Origin: Synechococcus sp. UW105
GTDB taxonomy: Bacteria; Cyanobacteriota; Cyanobacteriia; PCC-6307; Cyanobiaceae
Length of the DNA: 64,000 bases
Direction: 5' to 3'
Assembly: GCF_900473935.1 (NCBI RefSeq)
Contig: NZ_UCNN01000008.1
Coordinates: 62,001-126,000 of the forward strand
Each line of letters begins with the position of its first letter. The first letter of the stretch is position 1. Made by a program: the position numbers and the translations under genes. Positions 3,473 to 23,069 of this stretch are shown in pieces. Under the pieces are notes generated by a model. It worked only from the letters and a program-made list of their open reading frames with translations. It did not search any database and had not been told where the DNA came from.

Positions 3473-3951
3473 AGCACGGGTCGCACACCATGCAGCAAAG
3501 GCTTCGGGGCCGACGCCACAGTTGCTGCCATCAACGCCGGAATGCGAGCACTGTTATACACCCGAAATTCCCGCAGCAAGGACACACCTTGTTCACGCAC
3601 GGCCTGATTGAGCACCACCGATCCCTCGGCATCAGAAATCGAACGATGGAACGTGCCGGGTGGGATGCGCAGGATGTCGCCACCACTGTTTAAACGAACG
3701 ATGTGGAAGGGAACATCCCAGGCGAGGTTCACCAAATAGAACGTGCGTCCGCCGCTAGCCGCCAGCAGATTGTCCTCCTGATGGGGATGGAGATAAAACT
3801 GCCAGGCCCCTGTCTCCGGGTCGTCCGGAGGACTAACGGCCGGTCCTGAATGAATCACCAGATCACGGGCATTCGACGTCTCCACCGTCACGTCGAAGAA
3901 ACGCACCGATGGCGTGTCGCGAAACCGTTCATAGGCCAGCAGCTCGAACAT
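3460..3951 (-). CDS. small cupin-like conserved hypothetical protein
   Basis: The 163-residue protein looks like a single-domain cupin: FYLHPHQEDNLLAASG near residues 52-67 supplies a His-x-His and a Glu, and IPPGTFHRSISDAEGS near 95-110 resembles the second cupin motif with its His. Cupins often bind a metal through such residues and may be sugar isomerases, dioxygenases or simple binding proteins; nothing here picks one. It runs against the transglutaminase gene and stands apart from moaA by about 110 bases. I do not recognise a specific orthologue. Confidence 0.7.
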   Translation of the reverse strand: MFELLAYERFRDTPSVRFFDVTVETSNARDLVIHSGPAVSPPDDPETGAWQFYLHPHQEDNLLAASGGRTFYLVNLAWDVPFHIVRLNSGGDILRIPPGTFHRSISDAEGSVVLNQAVREQGVSLLREFRVYNSARIPALMAATVASAPKPLLHGVRPVLQAA

Positions 3952-4064
3952 GGTGTGAATCCAGTCAAGGCAGCTCTCTTGCTTGGTTGTATCGAAACCG
4001 CCCGATCAACGTGGTGGCAACCAACACCCCTTTCACCACGGCTTGCGGCTCAACCGCACTCAGA

Positions 4065-5114
4065 TCAGCCCCCCAGGTAGGCCATCTCCGCATGGGGCGA
4101 CGGTGAACCCAGCTGGGCCCGCAGCTCACTGAAACGATCCTCCCGTCCATGCCAGGCGGCGGTCAGCACTGCCATCAGGCCGGCGTGATCGGGACGGGGC
4201 ATCAACCAGCGGCGTAGGTCAAGCCCCTCATTCGCGAACAGACAGGTGAAGGCCAGACCATCGGCGGTGACCCGCAGCCGGTTGCAATCACCACAAAACG
4301 GCTCGGTGATGGAGGCAATCACCCCCACAACCCCACCACCATCTCGATAACGCCAACGATTTGCAGTGGCGTGATGAGCACGACCCACAGGCTCGAGCGG
4401 CCAGTGACGGTGCAAACGGGCAATCATCTCCGCAGCCGGCACAACCTGCTGCTCGGTCCAGCCGTTGCGATTGCCCACATCCATATATTCGATCAGGCGC
4501 AGCTCCAGCTGCTGCTCGCGGGCCAGTGCCGCCAAAGGAATGAGCTGGTCCTGATTGACACCGTTCTGGATCACACTGTTCAACTTCAATTGGCCAAGAC
4601 GCGGATCGAAGCCAGCCGCCCGAGCAGCCTTGAGAGCTCTCAGCACCTGAGCCAGCAAACGCTCACCCGTGCGCGCCTCCCCAGGCAAACCCGTCATACG
4701 CGCCACGCTGATGGCATCAGCTCCATCCAAACTGATCGTGACGCGGTCCAACCCAAGGGCCTTGAGCTGAAGGGCCCGCTGCGGCGTGAGCAGAATACCG
4801 TTACTGGTCAAAGTGAGCTGACGCAACTGGTGCAAGGGATCAGAGGGATCGGTACGACCCGCGGCAAGTTGCTCCAGCAATGGCCAAAGCCGATCACTGA
4901 GTAAAGGCTCGCCACCAGTGAGCCGCAACGTGTGGGCACCGAGCCGGCAGGCTGCGCGGATCACCGCCAACTGGGCCTCGAGATTCAACAGACCTTCCGG
5001 CTCCTTCGCATCCGGGCAACAGTAGGGACAGGCCAGATTGCAGCGAGCGGTCAGCGAGAGGCGCAACACCCCTAGGGGGCGATCCAGCTGATCGATTACA
5101 GGAGCCACGGTCAT
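4065..5114 (-). CDS. moaA: GTP 3',8-cyclase MoaA (molybdenum cofactor, first step)
   Basis: This 349-residue radical SAM enzyme converts GTP to 3',8-cyclo-7,8-dihydro-GTP, the first step of molybdenum cofactor synthesis. The N-terminal cluster motif is Cys25-x3-Cys29-x2-Cys32 (RCNLACPYC), followed by LTGGEPLL. The C-terminal cluster is in FCGDCNRLRVTADGLAFTC, matching the CX2CX13C pattern. The protein ends in Gly-Gly, needed in MoaA for catalysis. Its ATG shares four bases (ATGA) with the stop of mobA, so the two are one operon. It supplies cofactor for NarB downstream. Confidence 0.97.
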   Translation of the reverse strand: MTVAPVIDQLDRPLGVLRLSLTARCNLACPYCCPDAKEPEGLLNLEAQLAVIRAACRLGAHTLRLTGGEPLLSDRLWPLLEQLAAGRTDPSDPLHQLRQLTLTSNGILLTPQRALQLKALGLDRVTISLDGADAISVARMTGLPGEARTGERLLAQVLRALKAARAAGFDPRLGQLKLNSVIQNGVNQDQLIPLAALAREQQLELRLIEYMDVGNRNGWTEQQVVPAAEMIARLHRHWPLEPVGRAHHATANRWRYRDGGGVVGVIASITEPFCGDCNRLRVTADGLAFTCLFANEGLDLRRWLMPRPDHAGLMAVLTAAWHGREDRFSELRAQLGSPSPHAEMAYLGG

Positions 5115-5698
5115 GCCTCTAACGCTGCCAGATCAGCAGGAGCATTCACATTGCGAAGAGCAGCAGCAGGCAGACGAACCGTCTGATGGGGAATCCGATC
5201 CAGCCAGCGCAACCAACGTCGATCGTCTTGCTGCAACTGCTGCCGAAGCAGCGGCTGAAACGGTGCACCGGAGGGATAGATGCCCAGTAAGGGTTGCAAG
5301 CGTTCGCCATCATCCGCTACGGCCACACGCTGGGGATCGGTCTGCCAGTCATCGATTAACTGCTGCAGCACCGCTGGAGTGAGTAACGGCATATCCACCG
5401 GCGCCACCAACAATGGATAACCAGAGTCAACAGCCAAGACCCGCTCCAACGCACGCAAAGGCCCCTGCCAGGGGGGCGATTCCAGCATCACTTGCACCTG
5501 AGGCCGTCCATGCAGCAGCGCTTGGTGGGACTGATGTCGGCTCACCACCAAAACCGGCAACTGCAATGCCCGCAGATGATCAACAAGGGTGGGCAACCAG
5601 AGGCCACCGCTGGGATGGGAAAGCAATGCCTTATCGCGACCCATCCGTTCACTGGCACCGCCACTGAAAACGCAGGCTGTGAGGCCATCAGATCTCAT
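5111..5698 (-). CDS. mobA: molybdenum cofactor guanylyltransferase MobA
   Basis: The protein (195 residues from the ATG at 5698) carries the nucleotidyltransferase signature FSGGASERMGRDKALL near its start and VAPVDMPLLTPAVL further on, as in MobA, which adds GMP to molybdopterin to give the MGD cofactor used by nitrate reductases of the NarB type. An open frame runs upstream to 5764, but those residues do not fit the family, so I place the start at MRSDGLTACVFSGG. It is translationally coupled to moaA and diverges from the nitrate permease gene. Confidence 0.92.
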   Translation of the reverse strand: MRSDGLTACVFSGGASERMGRDKALLSHPSGGLWLPTLVDHLRALQLPVLVVSRHQSHQALLHGRPQVQVMLESPPWQGPLRALERVLAVDSGYPLLVAPVDMPLLTPAVLQQLIDDWQTDPQRVAVADDGERLQPLLGIYPSGAPFQPLLRQQLQQDDRRWLRWLDRIPHQTVRLPAAALRNVNAPADLAALEA

Positions 5699-15971: not shown

Positions 15972-16502
15972 TTGCCAACTCTGACTCTCAGAATCGCCCT
16001 TCTCACAGTTTCCGATCGCCGCACCATCGCCGATGACGACAGTGGGCATTGCCTGGAGCAGAGGCTGGGAGCCGCAGGCCATCTCCTGGCGGAACGTGCG
16101 ATCTGTCCAGATGATCGTTATCGGGTCAGAGCTGTGGTGAGCGGCTGGATTGCCGCACCAAACGTGGATGTGGTGATCACGAGTGGCGGCACAGGACTCA
16201 CCGGCCGTGATGGCACTCCGGAGGCCATCACCCCCCTGCTGGACAAAAGCATCGATGGCTTCGGTGAGCTGTTCCGCATGCTGTCGTTCGAGACGATTGG
16301 CACAAGCAGCCTGCAGAGCCGCTGTCTGGCGGGGGTAGCCAACGGCACGATCGTGTTTGTCTTGCCAGGATCCCTCGATGCCGTGGAAACAGCATGGGAC
16401 CGCTTGATCAAGTTGCAGCTCGACAGCACGACCAAGCCCTGCAACCTCGTACAGCTACTACCAAGACTGCGCGAACCAGTTGATCAACCCGCCACGTCCT
16501 AG
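15972..16502 (+). CDS. moaB: molybdenum cofactor biosynthesis protein MoaB/MogA family
   Basis: The 176-residue protein has the molybdopterin-binding fold of the MoaB/MogA family: IALLTVSDRRTIADDDSG at the N-terminus, TSGGTGLTGRDGTPEAI near residue 73, and FVLPGSLDAVETAWD near 132. Members adenylylate molybdopterin before metal insertion by MoeA. The start appears to be TTG at 15972, with no better codon in frame. Only about 26 bases separate it from divergent moaD. Its 3' end overlaps the cobA 3' end by four bases. Confidence 0.9.
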   Translation: MPTLTLRIALLTVSDRRTIADDDSGHCLEQRLGAAGHLLAERAICPDDRYRVRAVVSGWIAAPNVDVVITSGGTGLTGRDGTPEAITPLLDKSIDGFGELFRMLSFETIGTSSLQSRCLAGVANGTIVFVLPGSLDAVETAWDRLIKLQLDSTTKPCNLVQLLPRLREPVDQPATS

Positions 16503-17284
16503 AAGGGAATCGGCATCGTGACCGCCGCGGGTTCTGGAGCACAGGCATCAATCCGATGGTCAACCACCTCCCCCACCACCACAATCGATGGGGATGCAAA
16601 GGCCTGAGCCCGTGCCTCCTCCGCCACCACTGCCAGCGTCGAGGTGAGGCAGCGCTGCCCCGCAACCGTGCCCTGCTGGATCAAGGCCACGGGAGTATCC
16701 GCGGCCAAGCCTCCAGTGATCAGCTCCTCAGCGATCCGCGGCAGATTATGCAAACCCATATAAATCACCAAGCCGTCAGTCGCCGTGGCAAGCGCCCGCC
16801 AATTCACTGAAGGACGCCTCTTGTCGATCTCCTCATGGCCGGTGACAAAGGTCACCGAAGAGCCAGCTCGGCGATGGGTGACTGGAATACCGGCATAGGC
16901 AGGAGCTGCGATCCCAGCGGTCACGCCAGGCACCACTTCCACACCAATGCCACGCGCAGCCAGATGGGCCGCTTCCTCGCCACCACGTCCGAACAGAAAG
17001 GGATCGCCTCCCTTAAGTCGCACCACACAACGATGTCGGTGGGCCAGTTCCACCAACACTGCATTGGTGCTCGGCTGCGGCACAGAATGATGGCCGCGGC
17101 GCTTTCCCACGAAATGGCGCTCACACCCTTCTGGCACGAGGTCGAGCACCTCCTTGGGCACGAGTGAGTCGTACACCAGGGCATCGCAGGCGGCCAGCAA
17201 TCGATGCGCCTTGAGGGTCAACAACTCCGGATCACCGGGCCCAGCTCCCACCAGATAGACAGTGCCCTGAGACGAATCAGTCAC
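16499..17284 (-). CDS. cobA: uroporphyrinogen-III C-methyltransferase (siroheme synthesis)
   Basis: The 261-residue SAM-dependent enzyme methylates uroporphyrinogen III at C2 and C7 to give precorrin-2, the precursor of siroheme. Motifs are VYLVGAGPGDPELLTLKAHRLL at residues 9-30, VVRLKGGDPFLFGRGGEEA near 87, and VPGVTAGIAAPAYAGIPVTHR near 118. Siroheme is the cofactor of NirA just downstream, which explains the location. Its start overlaps the stop of the chelatase gene by four bases. Confidence 0.96.
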   Translation of the reverse strand: MTDSSQGTVYLVGAGPGDPELLTLKAHRLLAACDALVYDSLVPKEVLDLVPEGCERHFVGKRRGHHSVPQPSTNAVLVELAHRHRCVVRLKGGDPFLFGRGGEEAAHLAARGIGVEVVPGVTAGIAAPAYAGIPVTHRRAGSSVTFVTGHEEIDKRRPSVNWRALATATDGLVIYMGLHNLPRIAEELITGGLAADTPVALIQQGTVAGQRCLTSTLAVVAEEARAQAFASPSIVVVGEVVDHRIDACAPEPAAVTMPIPF

Positions 17285-18003
17285 GACAGAAGAGAAAGCA
17301 GAGAAACCAGACCGGCGCGGAGCTGAGGATCGTCAAGCAGCGAAGACACTCCACCAGCCTGCCGCAGCGCCTCCGCCATCCGATTCGGGGCCAGGGCCAG
17401 AGGTAAAGGCCAAGCGGCGGGATGCTGCTGGAGGTACTCCTCCCATGCATCGAACGCCACCAGGGCACAGCCAAGCTTCTCTTCAAGCATGTCGAGATAA
17501 CGATCCGCCAAGCCCGGTCTCAGAGGGTGATGCACCACCACCGCAGAGCGACCATCACGCTCCAGTGCAGCGATCCAACGGCGCAACAGATCCCACCACT
17601 GCGGCCATGCGCCCAGAAAGGGCAACAACGTCACGCTGCCACCCGCCTGGCGCATCCGCTCTCGGATCTGCGGCACATCACTACGAGCATGAGTCCCCGG
17701 CAGCAGAAGCAACGGCAAAAGCCAATAAGAGCGCTGCGGATCCGTGGCTAGAGGTGCTGCCGTAAGTGCCTCCACCTCCACAGGGGCACGTCGAAGCCGG
17801 GCCAGGTCGTCAGCCAAGCGGATCAAACACTGGGGAATCTCACCCCCACGACGGCCATGCACCACCAGTCTGATCACCGCAGGCTCTCGATCCACTGGCA
17901 CGGCCGCAAACCGTGCCGAGGAACACCCAAACGGAGCATTCCGTAACAACGGCAACGGATGATCCGCCCCCTGCACTGTTGAAGTCGAACGATCGTCAGC
18001 CAT
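17281..18003 (-). CDS. CbiX/SirB-type sirohydrochlorin chelatase family protein
   Basis: From the ATG at 18003 the protein has 240 residues and resembles two-domain CbiX/SirB chelatases: RLVVHGRRGGEIPQCL near residue 45, WLLPLLLLPGTHARSDVP near 95 and VVVHHPLRPGLADRYLDML in the second half. Such enzymes put iron or cobalt into sirohydrochlorin. Coupling to cobA suggests the last step of siroheme synthesis, iron insertion. The frame is open to 18372, but the extra residues do not look like the family and overlap a possible divergent gene. An ATG at 18009 is an alternative. Confidence 0.85.
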   Translation of the reverse strand: MADDRSTSTVQGADHPLPLLRNAPFGCSSARFAAVPVDREPAVIRLVVHGRRGGEIPQCLIRLADDLARLRRAPVEVEALTAAPLATDPQRSYWLLPLLLLPGTHARSDVPQIRERMRQAGGSVTLLPFLGAWPQWWDLLRRWIAALERDGRSAVVVHHPLRPGLADRYLDMLEEKLGCALVAFDAWEEYLQQHPAAWPLPLALAPNRMAEALRQAGGVSSLLDDPQLRAGLVSLLSLLS

Positions 18004-18015
18004 GACCATCGCATC

Positions 18016-18309
18016 ATGCCCAGCCAGAGACGCAGACCGGCCCAAGCACAACGACGACCAAGCATGCAAGCCAGCTCCCGGCGTGAACAAGCCTGGGAAG
18101 ACGAGATGGTCGACGCTAGGCGCCAAAGGCGCAACAGATCCCCGATCGAGAGTGAGGAGGGGTACTGGGACAGGCATGACCGCGGACACTACCCCCGCTC
18201 CAACCAACGCTCGGAATTCGACCGGGACCTGGCAGCGATGGGCAAGGTTTGGTCGATGATCCGCCAGGGTGCCGCGCGCATGCTGGGCGAAATAGGCCGT
18301 CAGTACTGA
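18016..18309 (+). CDS. possible small Arg-rich hypothetical protein
   Basis: The 97-residue frame has a plausible protein composition in its C-terminal two thirds: SPIESEEGYWDRHDRGHYPRS followed by FDRDLAAMGKVWSMIRQGAARMLGEIG, which could form an amphipathic helix. The Arg/Gln-rich start suggests true initiation at a later Met (18064 or 18106). It starts within 15 bases of the divergent chelatase gene, leaving no room for two promoters unless the start is later. No family recognised; it may not be real. Confidence 0.45.
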   Translation: MPSQRRRPAQAQRRPSMQASSRREQAWEDEMVDARRQRRNRSPIESEEGYWDRHDRGHYPRSNQRSEFDRDLAAMGKVWSMIRQGAARMLGEIGRQY

Positions 18310-18455
18310 TTGGTGGTGGCGTTCAGGCATGGGGCTATCGAGCCAGAAAGCCCAGCACCTCCTTGTATCCAATCACACCAAAAATCAAGGACAACAAACA
18401 CTGCGTTTTGTTCGATCCGCTACCGCGCAAGCACTAGGCCGATCGCTAAACAACC

Positions 18456-18567: not shown

Positions 18568-20181
18568 ATGACCAGCAGCGCTCCCTCCAGAACCTATCTG
18601 GAAGGCAAAAAACTGAACAAGATCGAGCAAAACAAGGCTGCCAAGGATGGCTTGCTCGTGGGCAGCGAGATTGAGAAATTCGCAGAGATGGGTTGGGAGC
18701 AGGTGGATGAAACCGACCTACAGCTTCGCCTTAAGTGGTACGGCATGTTTTGGCGGCCGAAGACACCAGGCAAATTCATGCTTCGCCTCAGGGTGCCGAA
18801 CGGCATCTTGTCCGCCCAGCAGCTGCGCGTCGTTGGTTCGATTGTCGAGCGCTACGGCGAAAACGGCAGTTGTGATATCACCACCCGCCAGAACCTGCAG
18901 CTCAGAGGAGTGCTGCTGAGCGACCTACCAGAAATTCTCAAACGACTGAAGGAAGCCGGACTAAGCACCATTCAATCGGGATTTGACAATCCCCGAAACG
19001 TCACGGGCAATCCCCTGGCAGGCATTGATCCGCAAGAGATTGTGGATACGCGACCCTATACCCATGAACTCAATCAATTCCTCACCAACAATGAAGAGGG
19101 AAATCCTGAATACTCCAACCTTCCACGCAAGTGGAACACAGCCGTAGCCGGATCAAAAGACAACTTCCTCCTCCACAACGACATCATCTTTCATCCGGTT
19201 GAGAAGGATGGGGAGCTTGGATTCGGTGTGTGGGTTGGAGGCGTTTTGTCCTCCCAGATGAACGCCTATGCCCTGCCGCTCAACGCATGGGTCAAACCTG
19301 ACGAACTCTGCAAAATCACTGACGCGGTCATCCGCCCTTGGCGTGACAACGGCGAGCGTGACAAGCGCCCCAAGGGTCGCTTCCGCCTCTACCTCGACCA
19401 AGTCGGGCTGGATCAGTTCCGCACCTTGGTTGAGGAGCACTTCGGTCCACTCACCCCAGACCCAGGCTCGGTGTTCGATCAGACCCCGCGCTCTCACTAC
19501 GGGATCCATCCCCAAAAGCAAGAAGGCCTGAACTTTGCTGGCCTGCACGTACCCGTCGGACGACTTAGAGCCGATGACTTGCAAGACCTGGCAAGCGCCA
19601 GCCTCCAATACGGCAATGGCGAGGTGCGCCTCACCGAGGACCAGAACGTGATCCTCGTGGGAGTCCCGAACGCGCAAATCAAACCATTGGAAGCTGATCC
19701 ACTGCTGAAGCGTTTCCCGCTTCAGCCACAGGCAGTAGCAGCAGGCACCGTTTCCTGTACAGGAAACAGTTACTGCGGCTTTGCTCTCACCAACACCAAG
19801 GATCAAGCTCTTGCATTATCCAAGACACTTGACGCGGAGATCAACCTTCCGGACGAAGTCAAGATCCACTGGACGGGCTGTCCTAATAACTGCGGACAAG
19901 CAGATATGGGAGCAATCGGCCTTACCGGAACCAAAACAAAAAATAGTGAAGGTGTGATGGGTGAAGGCTACAAAATCACGATTGGTGGCTCTCAAGGCAG
20001 TGACCCGACAATGGGATCAGTGCTACACAAAGCCATTCCAGCAGATGAAATTCAAACTGTGTTGAAACAGCTACTCATCGAACAATTTGGAGCAACACCC
20101 AAACCTGCCCCCAGCACCAATTCTGAGCCCAAGGGAGGCACTGATTTCTTCTCCCGATTTATGAATCGCATTAGTAACTAA
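18568..20181 (+). CDS. nirA: ferredoxin-nitrite reductase NirA
   Basis: The 537-residue enzyme reduces nitrite to ammonium with six electrons from ferredoxin. The [4Fe-4S]/siroheme ligands are Cys397 and Cys403 (CTGNSYCGF) and Cys438 and Cys442 (TGCPNNCGQ). Siroheme-binding basic stretches such as TTRQNLQLRG near residue 110 are present. After the catalytic part comes a Pro/Ser-rich linker and a C-terminal tail, TDFFSRFMNRISN, absent from many nitrite reductases as I know them. The same motif recurs in the small protein encoded next. Siroheme genes lie just upstream and a nitrite channel downstream. Confidence 0.97.
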   Translation: MTSSAPSRTYLEGKKLNKIEQNKAAKDGLLVGSEIEKFAEMGWEQVDETDLQLRLKWYGMFWRPKTPGKFMLRLRVPNGILSAQQLRVVGSIVERYGENGSCDITTRQNLQLRGVLLSDLPEILKRLKEAGLSTIQSGFDNPRNVTGNPLAGIDPQEIVDTRPYTHELNQFLTNNEEGNPEYSNLPRKWNTAVAGSKDNFLLHNDIIFHPVEKDGELGFGVWVGGVLSSQMNAYALPLNAWVKPDELCKITDAVIRPWRDNGERDKRPKGRFRLYLDQVGLDQFRTLVEEHFGPLTPDPGSVFDQTPRSHYGIHPQKQEGLNFAGLHVPVGRLRADDLQDLASASLQYGNGEVRLTEDQNVILVGVPNAQIKPLEADPLLKRFPLQPQAVAAGTVSCTGNSYCGFALTNTKDQALALSKTLDAEINLPDEVKIHWTGCPNNCGQADMGAIGLTGTKTKNSEGVMGEGYKITIGGSQGSDPTMGSVLHKAIPADEIQTVLKQLLIEQFGATPKPAPSTNSEPKGGTDFFSRFMNRISN

Positions 20182-20275
20182 GCCAAAAACGAAACTCAAA
20201 ATCGAACAAGCCGTGGCGCTGACTTTTTGAAGCCATGGTCACTCGATTCTCCACCAACCCTCTCTAGAAGTACCC

Positions 20276-20410
20276 ATGTCCGAATCCCGCGATCTCTTCT
20301 CCCGCCTCGTCAACTGGTTCACCAGCAGCGGCGCTGACAAAGCTCCGATTTCCCGTCCTTCTAATCAACTGGATGGCTTCTCGAAGCTAATGAACAAAAT
20401 CAGTGGCTGA
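20276..20410 (+). CDS. 44-residue protein sharing the NirA tail motif
   Basis: An ATG at 20276 opens a 44-residue frame ending TGA at 20410, between nirA and the nitrite channel gene. It starts MSESRDLFSRLVNWFTS and ends LDGFSKLMNKISG. Both ends resemble the last residues of NirA (TDFFSRFMNRISN): an acidic residue, an aromatic, Ser, a basic residue, two hydrophobics, Asn. The agreement across three copies makes chance coding unlikely. Known small regulators of nitrite reductase exist (NirP1 in Synechocystis), so a role in binding NirA or a NirA partner is a fair guess, not shown here. Confidence 0.75.
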   Translation: MSESRDLFSRLVNWFTSSGADKAPISRPSNQLDGFSKLMNKISG

Positions 20411-20472: not shown

Positions 20473-21384
20473 ATGAGTGTCACTGCGTCCCAGATGGACT
20501 ACGTCCTACCTAATGAACTTGTCGACGGCATGATTGGCGCCGGCGGCAAAAAAGCCACTGTCAGCATTAAGAACCTGCTGCTGCGTGGCTTCTATTCCGG
20601 AGCGATTCTCGGCCTGGCCGTGATCCTTGCACTGACCGTCGGGATCAAGAGTGGGCAACCCTGGCTCGGGTCATTACTGTTCCCCTTCGGCTTCGCAAGC
20701 ATCGTGCTGTTTGGCATGGAGCTAGTCACCGGTAACTTCGCCCTCTTACCGATGGCCACCTGGGCAGGTCGCAGCAGCTGGCGCGCCACCTTTCGCAACT
20801 GGGCCTGGGTCTGGTTAGGGAACTGGATTGGAACGGCTGTTGTTGCCCTACTCATGGCCATCAGCCTCACAAGCGGCGGCACCGTTGACCCCGCCTCGGC
20901 CGCTGATGGTGGTGGCATGTGGCAACAGGTTGCCGCCAAGATCATTGCCCTCAACAAGACAAACGTTGTCACCAAATACGAGAACCTTCAGACTCTCGGC
21001 TTCTTCCTCGCCATTCTTCGCGGGGTGATCGCCAATTGGCTGGTGTGCCTAGGGGTCACCATGGCACTGGTGAGCAAGAGTGTTCCTGGAAAAATCCTGG
21101 CGTGCTGGCTTCCCATCACTGCTTTCCAATCGATGGGCATGGAGCACATCGTTGTGAATCAATTCCTGCACACTGCGGGACCCATCCTTGGCTCTGGCGT
21201 GAACATGGGTCAGGTCTTCATCTGGAACTTTATTCCCGTCACCATCGGCAACATCATTGGTGGCATGGTGTTCATCGGCATGCTCTTCTACAGCACCCAC
21301 CGCACCAAGGTGGAGAACGTGCTTCCCAACGAGCATGATGACAAGCTGGAGCGTGAACTGGCCGCCGAATTGGGCGCCCGCTGA
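20473..21384 (+). CDS. formate/nitrite transporter family channel (FocA/NirC)
   Basis: The 303-residue protein has about six hydrophobic segments and the family features: YVLPNELVDGMIGAGGKKA at the N-terminus, FGMELVTGNFALLPMATWAGR near residue 85 and GIKSGQPWLGSLLFPFGF before it. The family moves nitrite, formate or related anions across the membrane. Lying just after nirA, nitrite is the likely substrate, for uptake or for release of excess. The next gene begins ten bases after its stop. Confidence 0.92.
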   Translation: MSVTASQMDYVLPNELVDGMIGAGGKKATVSIKNLLLRGFYSGAILGLAVILALTVGIKSGQPWLGSLLFPFGFASIVLFGMELVTGNFALLPMATWAGRSSWRATFRNWAWVWLGNWIGTAVVALLMAISLTSGGTVDPASAADGGGMWQQVAAKIIALNKTNVVTKYENLQTLGFFLAILRGVIANWLVCLGVTMALVSKSVPGKILACWLPITAFQSMGMEHIVVNQFLHTAGPILGSGVNMGQVFIWNFIPVTIGNIIGGMVFIGMLFYSTHRTKVENVLPNEHDDKLERELAAELGAR

Positions 21385-21394
21385 TCACGACTCT

Positions 21395-22135
21395 GTGAAT
21401 GAGGTTGCCAATGAAGCCGTTCTTTGGGAGCGGCTTTCCAAAGCATCACGACGGGCTCCTTTAGATCCCGCATGGCTGGGGGAGGTTTACTCCCCCAGCC
21501 TTTCTGATGAACTGCGCCATGCCATAGCTGAAAAAATCGGCATGCTGGCCGAACGGGGCTGGCCGCTCATCCAGAAACTGATGGACCAATACGGGCCTCA
21601 AGACGAATTGATCATGGCCGCAGGTCTTAGCCATCAGCCTGAAAGCCGTACCTGGCTGATGAAGCACCTCCGCAGCATCGATCCAGAAACAGAACCCGAT
21701 CGAGCCCTACTGGTGCTGCAGTCACTGGCCTGCTGGGGTGGCGAACTTCCCTTATCCCTGATCGAACAAACGCTGGAGATGCCAGGCATGCATCTGCGTC
21801 TGGCCGGCCTGCAGCTGCTCAATTTCCATGCCCATCTGCTCGACGACAGGGAGTTGCTTCGCGTCTGCAACAAGCTACTCAAGGATTTCCGGGATCCCGT
21901 TGCGCTGGCAACGATCCGACTGCTGCAACGCCGAAACGGCACCGCGATAACAGAGCGCCTGGCTCAGCTCACCATGGACGGTTCCGACCCTGTGGCAGCC
22001 GCAGCCCTCAAGGCGCTCGGTTGTATTGCCACACCTGCAAGTCAGCGATGGTTACTGGAACTCAGTCAGGCTCTGCCGGAAGGAGATCGACGCCAAATGG
22101 CATGCAAACAGCTCAAACAGCAATACAGAACCTAA
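21395..22135 (+). CDS. HEAT-repeat protein of the nitrite gene cluster
   Basis: From the GTG at 21395 (ten bases after the channel gene) the protein has 246 residues. It is a string of paired helices with Leu- and Ala-rich repeats, for example PDRALLVLQSLACWGGELPL, LRLAGLQLLNFHAHLLDD, PVALATIRLLQRRNG and PVAAAALKALGCIATPAS, fitting HEAT or PBS-lyase-like repeats. Such folds bind other proteins; some cyanobacterial members attach or detach bilins, but the setting here argues for a nitrite role. The frame is open further upstream over the channel gene, which is a shadow. Specific function unknown. Confidence 0.8.
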   Translation: MNEVANEAVLWERLSKASRRAPLDPAWLGEVYSPSLSDELRHAIAEKIGMLAERGWPLIQKLMDQYGPQDELIMAAGLSHQPESRTWLMKHLRSIDPETEPDRALLVLQSLACWGGELPLSLIEQTLEMPGMHLRLAGLQLLNFHAHLLDDRELLRVCNKLLKDFRDPVALATIRLLQRRNGTAITERLAQLTMDGSDPVAAAALKALGCIATPASQRWLLELSQALPEGDRRQMACKQLKQQYRT

Positions 22136-22895: not shown

Positions 22896-23069
22896 ATGAT
22901 CAGATACATTGCTTCCCGATTCAACCGCGCAGATGTTGGCTTGCGCCGATCAAGACCAAGCCGCCTGCGGTTTCCAACTCTGATGATTGAGCGCCTGTAT
23001 TACGCAGAAGGCCGCCATCACCCAGACCACCCTTTCCATGGCACCCATTCAGGGCTTTGTGCCTGGTAA
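22896..23069 (+). CDS. possible 57-residue microprotein (HHPDHPFHG motif)
   Basis: A frame from the ATG at 22896 has GAGGAG eleven bases upstream. Its second half, from a Met at 22983, reads MIERLYYAEGRHHPDHPFHG and then THSGLCAW. The Gly-Arg-x-x-Pro-x-His-Pro-x-His-Gly-x-x-x-Gly-Leu pattern looks like real protein and recalls short picocyanobacterial proteins, though I cannot confirm this. The Arg-rich first half may be leader, making a 28-residue product possible. Its stop lies inside the NtcA box upstream of the TrpD-like gene. Confidence 0.5.
   Translation: MIRYIASRFNRADVGLRRSRPSRLRFPTLMIERLYYAEGRHHPDHPFHGTHSGLCAW

Follow-up and report, generated by a model that had tools for sequence, protein, structure and literature searches.

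We have analysed a short gene that lies between the genes of a nitrite reductase and a nitrite channel in a 64,000-nucleotide stretch (hereafter the window) of the Synechococcus sp. UW105 genome (contig NZ_UCNN01000008.1, positions 62,001 to 126,000). The gene (20276-20410, + strand) codes for a 44-residue protein, MSESRDLFSRLVNWFTSSGADKAPISRPSNQLDGFSKLMNKISG, and its distribution among genomes follows the channel, NitM, rather than the reductase, NirA. It seems to us an evenly balanced possibility that this protein is an accessory of NitM, whose helices bind the channel and relieve the inhibition exerted by its C-terminal tail, and that a related motif at the C-terminus of NirA does likewise; the binding, its site and the activating direction are what we infer. 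The small gene is not new as a gene: it is the same as SynWH7803_RSS12335, described in Synechococcus WH7803 (PMC9430850).

The window NirA (ferredoxin-nitrite reductase, 537 residues, 18568-20181, + strand) contains PF01077 and PF03460 and matches NCBIfam NF007125 with its residues 7-512 (E 4.7e-260). Because the family model stops at residue 512, about where the conserved body of the enzyme ends, the last 25 residues must be regarded as an addition. The C-terminus reads ...TNSEPKGGTDFFSRFMNRISN and carries, after a linker of Pro, Ser and Gly, the motif DFFSRFMNRISN (20143-20178, + strand). The first-pass annotation of this DNA had pointed out that the NirA motif, following a Pro/Ser-rich linker, recurs at both ends of the 44-residue open reading frame (ORF), and the sequences confirm this. 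The small protein consists of two amphipathic helix motifs and a linker, the first motif being DLFSRLVNWFTS (residues 6-17, 20291-20326, + strand) and the second DGFSKLMNKIS (residues 33-43, 20372-20404, + strand). The common pattern that the annotation had drawn up for the three copies holds as a resemblance, but its serine is not strict, the first copy reading N-W-F-T.

A profile built from 37 homologues of the small protein was searched against the whole genome. It matched the NirA tail at E 1.8e-6, and at E <= 0.2 it found only this tail and the ORF. Shuffle tests gave p ~2e-4 for the NirA tail against the small protein and p ~6e-4 for the first half of the small protein against the second, thus profile and shuffles together put the resemblance between tail and ORF beyond chance. 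Five residues of the second motif (D33, S36, M39, N40 and S43) are invariant in the 37 homologues, and S9, N13 and W14 of the first motif are nearly so. The motif helices are amphipathic when compared with shuffled sequences (p 0.0004 to 0.03). Helices were predicted at residues 7-17 and 34-43, with no strand, in the homologue of locus L020 (low-confidence AlphaFold model of a read-through chain), and two helices had also been obtained with PSIPRED for the WH7803 protein (PMC9430850). A degenerate DNA search found no other protein of the genome ending in the motif, which rules out a general targeting tag.

The small ORF is a true conserved gene under purifying selection. Its conservation in relatives, which the annotation had made a condition of its idea, is borne out by 83 distinct homologues: the median ratio of nonsynonymous to synonymous substitution rates was 0.19 over the 83 coding sequences, and all 364 usable pairs were below 1. 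No family of Pfam or NCBIfam matched the ORF, and no RNA family of Rfam was found around it. The window ORF shares with SynWH7803_RSS12335 the length of 44 residues, the position between nirA and nitM and the similarity to NirA tails, and the WH7803 record contains its homologue (L036). According to PMC9430850, the WH7803 gene is co-transcribed with nirA and nitM, as shown for this strain only, is induced 194- to 239-fold under nitrogen stress, and codes for a protein similar to the NirAs of CB0101 and NATL2A.

The small protein was found in 45 of 61 genomes of the window's family (that of UW105 included) and in none of 38 relatives outside the family; 386 genomes sampled across the phylum gave no case outside it either. 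Among 400 family genomes it occurred, in uncorrected counts, in 130 of the 154 with the channel versus 1 of the 118 that have NirA but lack the channel. The lone exception, G187, is a genome of 74% completeness and carries just a paralogue elsewhere. In the Cyanobium-like loci L178-L181 the small gene stands directly 5' of nitM, with nirA separated from it or out of reach. From the co-occurrence counts and from this position we conclude that the small gene follows the channel and not the reductase.

Several variants of the small gene were noticed in the course of the survey. Some Prochlorococcus genomes have paralogues of the MDFFSAFVNWFSQLGEDLPE... type at a distance from nirA and nitM (L171, 3187-3315, - strand; L172, 3560-3832; L182, 3161-3313), and G059 (L173) appears to carry a broken copy. 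Free copies, tandem or single, in L176 (2307-2713) and also in L070, L076 and L078 have an N-terminus, MTQSTSQMSYVLPK, that resembles the NitM start SQMDYVLPN; since it was seemingly copied from there, it suggests a duplication unit spanning the small gene and nitM. In L043 (4043-4156) and L177 the small gene is apparently truncated in the second motif; there the NitM tail is of full length, with HD changed to LD. In-frame read-through from the small gene into nitM can be dismissed as a biological feature, as the gap lengths occur in all three frames (22, 27 and 33).

The gap between nirA and the small gene is 94 bases, that between the small gene and nitM (focA-like; 20473-21384, + strand) 62 bases. 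The window channel has the features of an alpha-cyanobacterial FNT-family nitrite channel, a PF01226 domain (E 2.5e-62) followed by a charged, conserved cytoplasmic C-tail, NVLPNEHDDKLERELAAELGAR (21316-21381, + strand). This tail is the counterpart of a segment published as autoinhibitory: in the experiments of Maeda et al. 2015 (PMC4390861) the NitM of CC9311 and that of MIT9313 were inactive at full length in S. elongatus and were activated by deletion of the tail, the naturally tail-less NitM of CC9605 was active, and the authors predicted that alpha-cyanobacteria possess an activator which acts reversibly on the tail.

In a survey of 98 distinct channel loci the NitM tail was canonical in all 76 that have the small protein. 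The loci without it had 11 canonical, 9 variant and 2 truncated tails, and four of the 11 canonical ones bear the NirA motif instead. In the lineage with truncated tails (L201, L039) the nirA-nitM spacer contains a pseudogene that aligns with intact small genes, its start codon replaced by ATT and its frame broken; what is left, LCESGRDEAPILSG, aligns to FSTSGRDRAPILRP of a homologue with a score of 35, whereas the best of 20 shuffles scored 27. The small gene has thus decayed where its proposed target, the NitM tail, was lost.

On repeated occasions NirA tails have acquired sequence from the small protein, either one half of it or both. Tails resembling the second half were found in the window, in L032 and in Aphanocapsa (L066), tails resembling the first half in L047-L051, L087 and L183, and in one Prochlorococcus group (the group of L070-L106) NirA carries the complete small protein as a C-terminal fusion; genomes of this last group have the free gene once, twice or not at all (L073, L079, L085, L106). 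L032 and L066 have the motif on NirA and no free small gene. On the NirA tree, no fewer than two changes are needed to account for the second-half type and no fewer than three for the first-half type; some of these could be losses instead of gains. Other Prochlorococcus NirA tails have diverged and are often amphipathic. The tail is absent from all 36 NirA loci of channel-less genomes, two separate Prochlorococcus groups among them, and the Prochlorococcus NirAs of channel-bearing genomes have an extension. In most marine Synechococcus, NirA stops near residue 512 and has no tail, yet the small gene is present.

We propose that the two amphipathic helices of the small protein would bind NitM, most likely at its charged C-tail, and that this binding would relieve the inhibition of nitrite transport. 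The same motif on NirA would let the reductase occupy the NitM site itself, thus the channel would open where its nitrite-consuming enzyme is present and nitrite import would be tied to use; in some lineages the NirA tail may stand in for the free peptide. We favour activation over inhibition because NitM was inactive in a host most likely without the small protein, S. elongatus, this last assumption following from the failure to find the protein outside the window's family. A more specific proposal, to which we give slightly less than even credence, is that the activator postulated by Maeda et al. is to be identified with the small protein and the NirA tail that matches it, that the enzyme-borne motif opens the channel of the enzyme's own substrate, and that a phage copy could open the host channel.

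Several observations weigh against the proposal. The co-occurrence counts were not corrected for shared ancestry, and the joint loss of NitM tail and small gene is one event in one lineage. In seven loci (L040, L042, L103, the phage locus L186, L199, L225 and L226) the tail is canonical but the small protein and a NirA motif are both missing within reach; the NitM tail can therefore persist without the small protein, the match between tail and gene is one-way, and our proposal does not account for these loci. AlphaFold gave no confident contact for the read-through chain of L020 (small protein, stop codon as Gly, channel), and in a natural NirA fusion the tail was undocked, both models being of low confidence in these parts and built on shallow alignments.

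It is possible, but rather unlikely, that the small protein is a pure scaffold, its helices bridging NirA and the channel, or several channels, so that nitrite is channelled to the enzyme while gating is unaffected. The two copies of the motif, its recurrence on NirA tails and the single operon (reported in PMC9430850) would suit such a role. A scaffold does not by itself explain why the gene decayed where the inhibitory tail of the channel was lost, and it leaves the motif-less NirAs of most Synechococcus unaccounted for.

The first-pass annotation had thought of a NirA binding site which a free two-copy version of the tail could bridge or for which it could compete. A shared docking site is indeed suggested by the homology and by the free two-copy form, but the site is probably not on NirA, because the ORF is kept beside tail-less NirAs, tracks the FNT channel and adjoins nitM where no nirA is near. 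The persistence of the ORF in most marine Synechococcus, whose NirAs lack the tail, speaks against the annotation's idea that the protein regulates NirA by binding to it in the manner of NirP1, the NirA tail being a competitor or pseudo-ligand. We hold this improbable: although the tail homology and the position next to nirA in most genomes favour it, the protein is missing from 117 of the 118 genomes with NirA but no channel, the gene stands by nitM away from nirA in L179-L181, and in the AlphaFold model the fused tail is not docked to the body of NirA.

We give the same low standing to a generic membrane anchor, in which amphipathic helices would tether both NirA and the small protein to the membrane with no specific protein partner. 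The amphipathicity of the motif helices fits it, as do some Prochlorococcus tails that have kept a hydrophobic helix and lost the exact motif, but five invariant residues, including the polar D, S and N, are more than a membrane helix needs, and the linkage to the channel would be unexplained. That the small protein is an inhibitor closing NitM, for example on ammonium addition, is also consistent with the linkage to channel and C-tail but very unlikely, as NitM was inactive and not constitutively active in a host that most likely lacks the small protein (PMC4390861) and the gene is induced under nitrogen scarcity (PMC9430850).

Copies of the small gene occur in phages as well. Two IMG/VR contigs of a psbA-bearing cyanophage (L184 and L185, identical over the 1,001 bases compared) have a free 48-residue copy, MNSIKPSNDLFSRFVNWFSNSGSDYILADSKVGGKDFFSRLMNRISTM, at 4983-5129; no NirA or FNT channel is present in these contig records. 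In isolate phages we found neither a copy of the small gene nor a NirA of cyanobacterial type. Another viral contig, L186, has the channel and NirA without the small protein; between its channel and NirA genes there is a short reading frame (3860-4000) that does not resemble the small protein. If the activator reading is true, the free cyanophage copy could open the nitrite channel of the host during infection.

By using and releasing nitrite, marine Synechococcus and Prochlorococcus shape the exchange of nitrogen in sunlit ocean waters. What switches the autoinhibited channel on was a question that the 2015 study of NitM did not answer. The small protein is a specific candidate encoded beside the channel, and nature offers both a variant of it (the NirA tail) and a double loss (small gene and NitM tail). 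If the proposal is true, it would clearly exemplify the repeated capture of a regulator's binding motif by an enzyme.

Some neighbours of the locus should also be mentioned. Upstream of nirA a CbiX-like protein (17281-18372, - strand) adjoins a tetrapyrrole methylase (16499-17284), and the two likely supply siroheme for NirA. A HEAT-repeat protein (21257-22135) comes directly after nitM, and a similar gene stands directly 3' of nirA in the channel-less L093. Looking for the NtcA consensus GTAN8TAC near nirA, we found a single match in the window, at 23066, a frequency no higher than expected by chance.

It is instructive to compare the small protein with what has been described before. In the accessible portions of PMC9430850 the WH7803 gene is assigned neither a function nor a family, and nothing is said of its phyletic pattern, of a connection with the channel tail or of a history of fusion to NirA. 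Similarly, Maeda et al. predicted the activator without naming a protein, the small ORF going unmentioned in the available parts of that paper (PMC4390861); the window channel carries the same C-terminal regulatory domain, which is our proposed target. A third gene of the Prochlorococcus nitrite cassette, next to focA and nirA, has been named nirX and groups with nirA in HLII populations (PMC6370341, PMC10119275). As the small protein is missing from HL-type genomes that have NirA but no channel, nirX is probably a different neighbouring gene, and on what these sources offer in their accessible portions the phyletic distribution does not support identity of the two.

NirP1 of Synechocystis is, like our protein, a small protein of cyanobacterial nitrite assimilation (PMC10907346). 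The control by NirP1 that the annotation had brought up as a parallel does not extend to the sequences. NirP1 has 76-86 residues in the vast majority of cases, one absolutely conserved Cys, three conserved Trp and four predicted beta strands, binds NirA, and is absent from Prochlorococcus and most marine Synechococcus (PMC10907346), whereas members of the present family are mostly 41-49 residues long in the alignment, with no conserved Cys, one nearly invariant Trp and predicted helices instead of strands. Length, Cys/Trp pattern and predicted fold thus rule out homology. A precedent within the FNT family is PflB-FocA of E. coli. It differs from our case in having no small peptide and no common sequence motif, but it is alike in outline: a cytoplasmic enzyme, PflB, binds an FNT channel, FocA, and must do so for formate to be translocated in vivo (PMC11841067).
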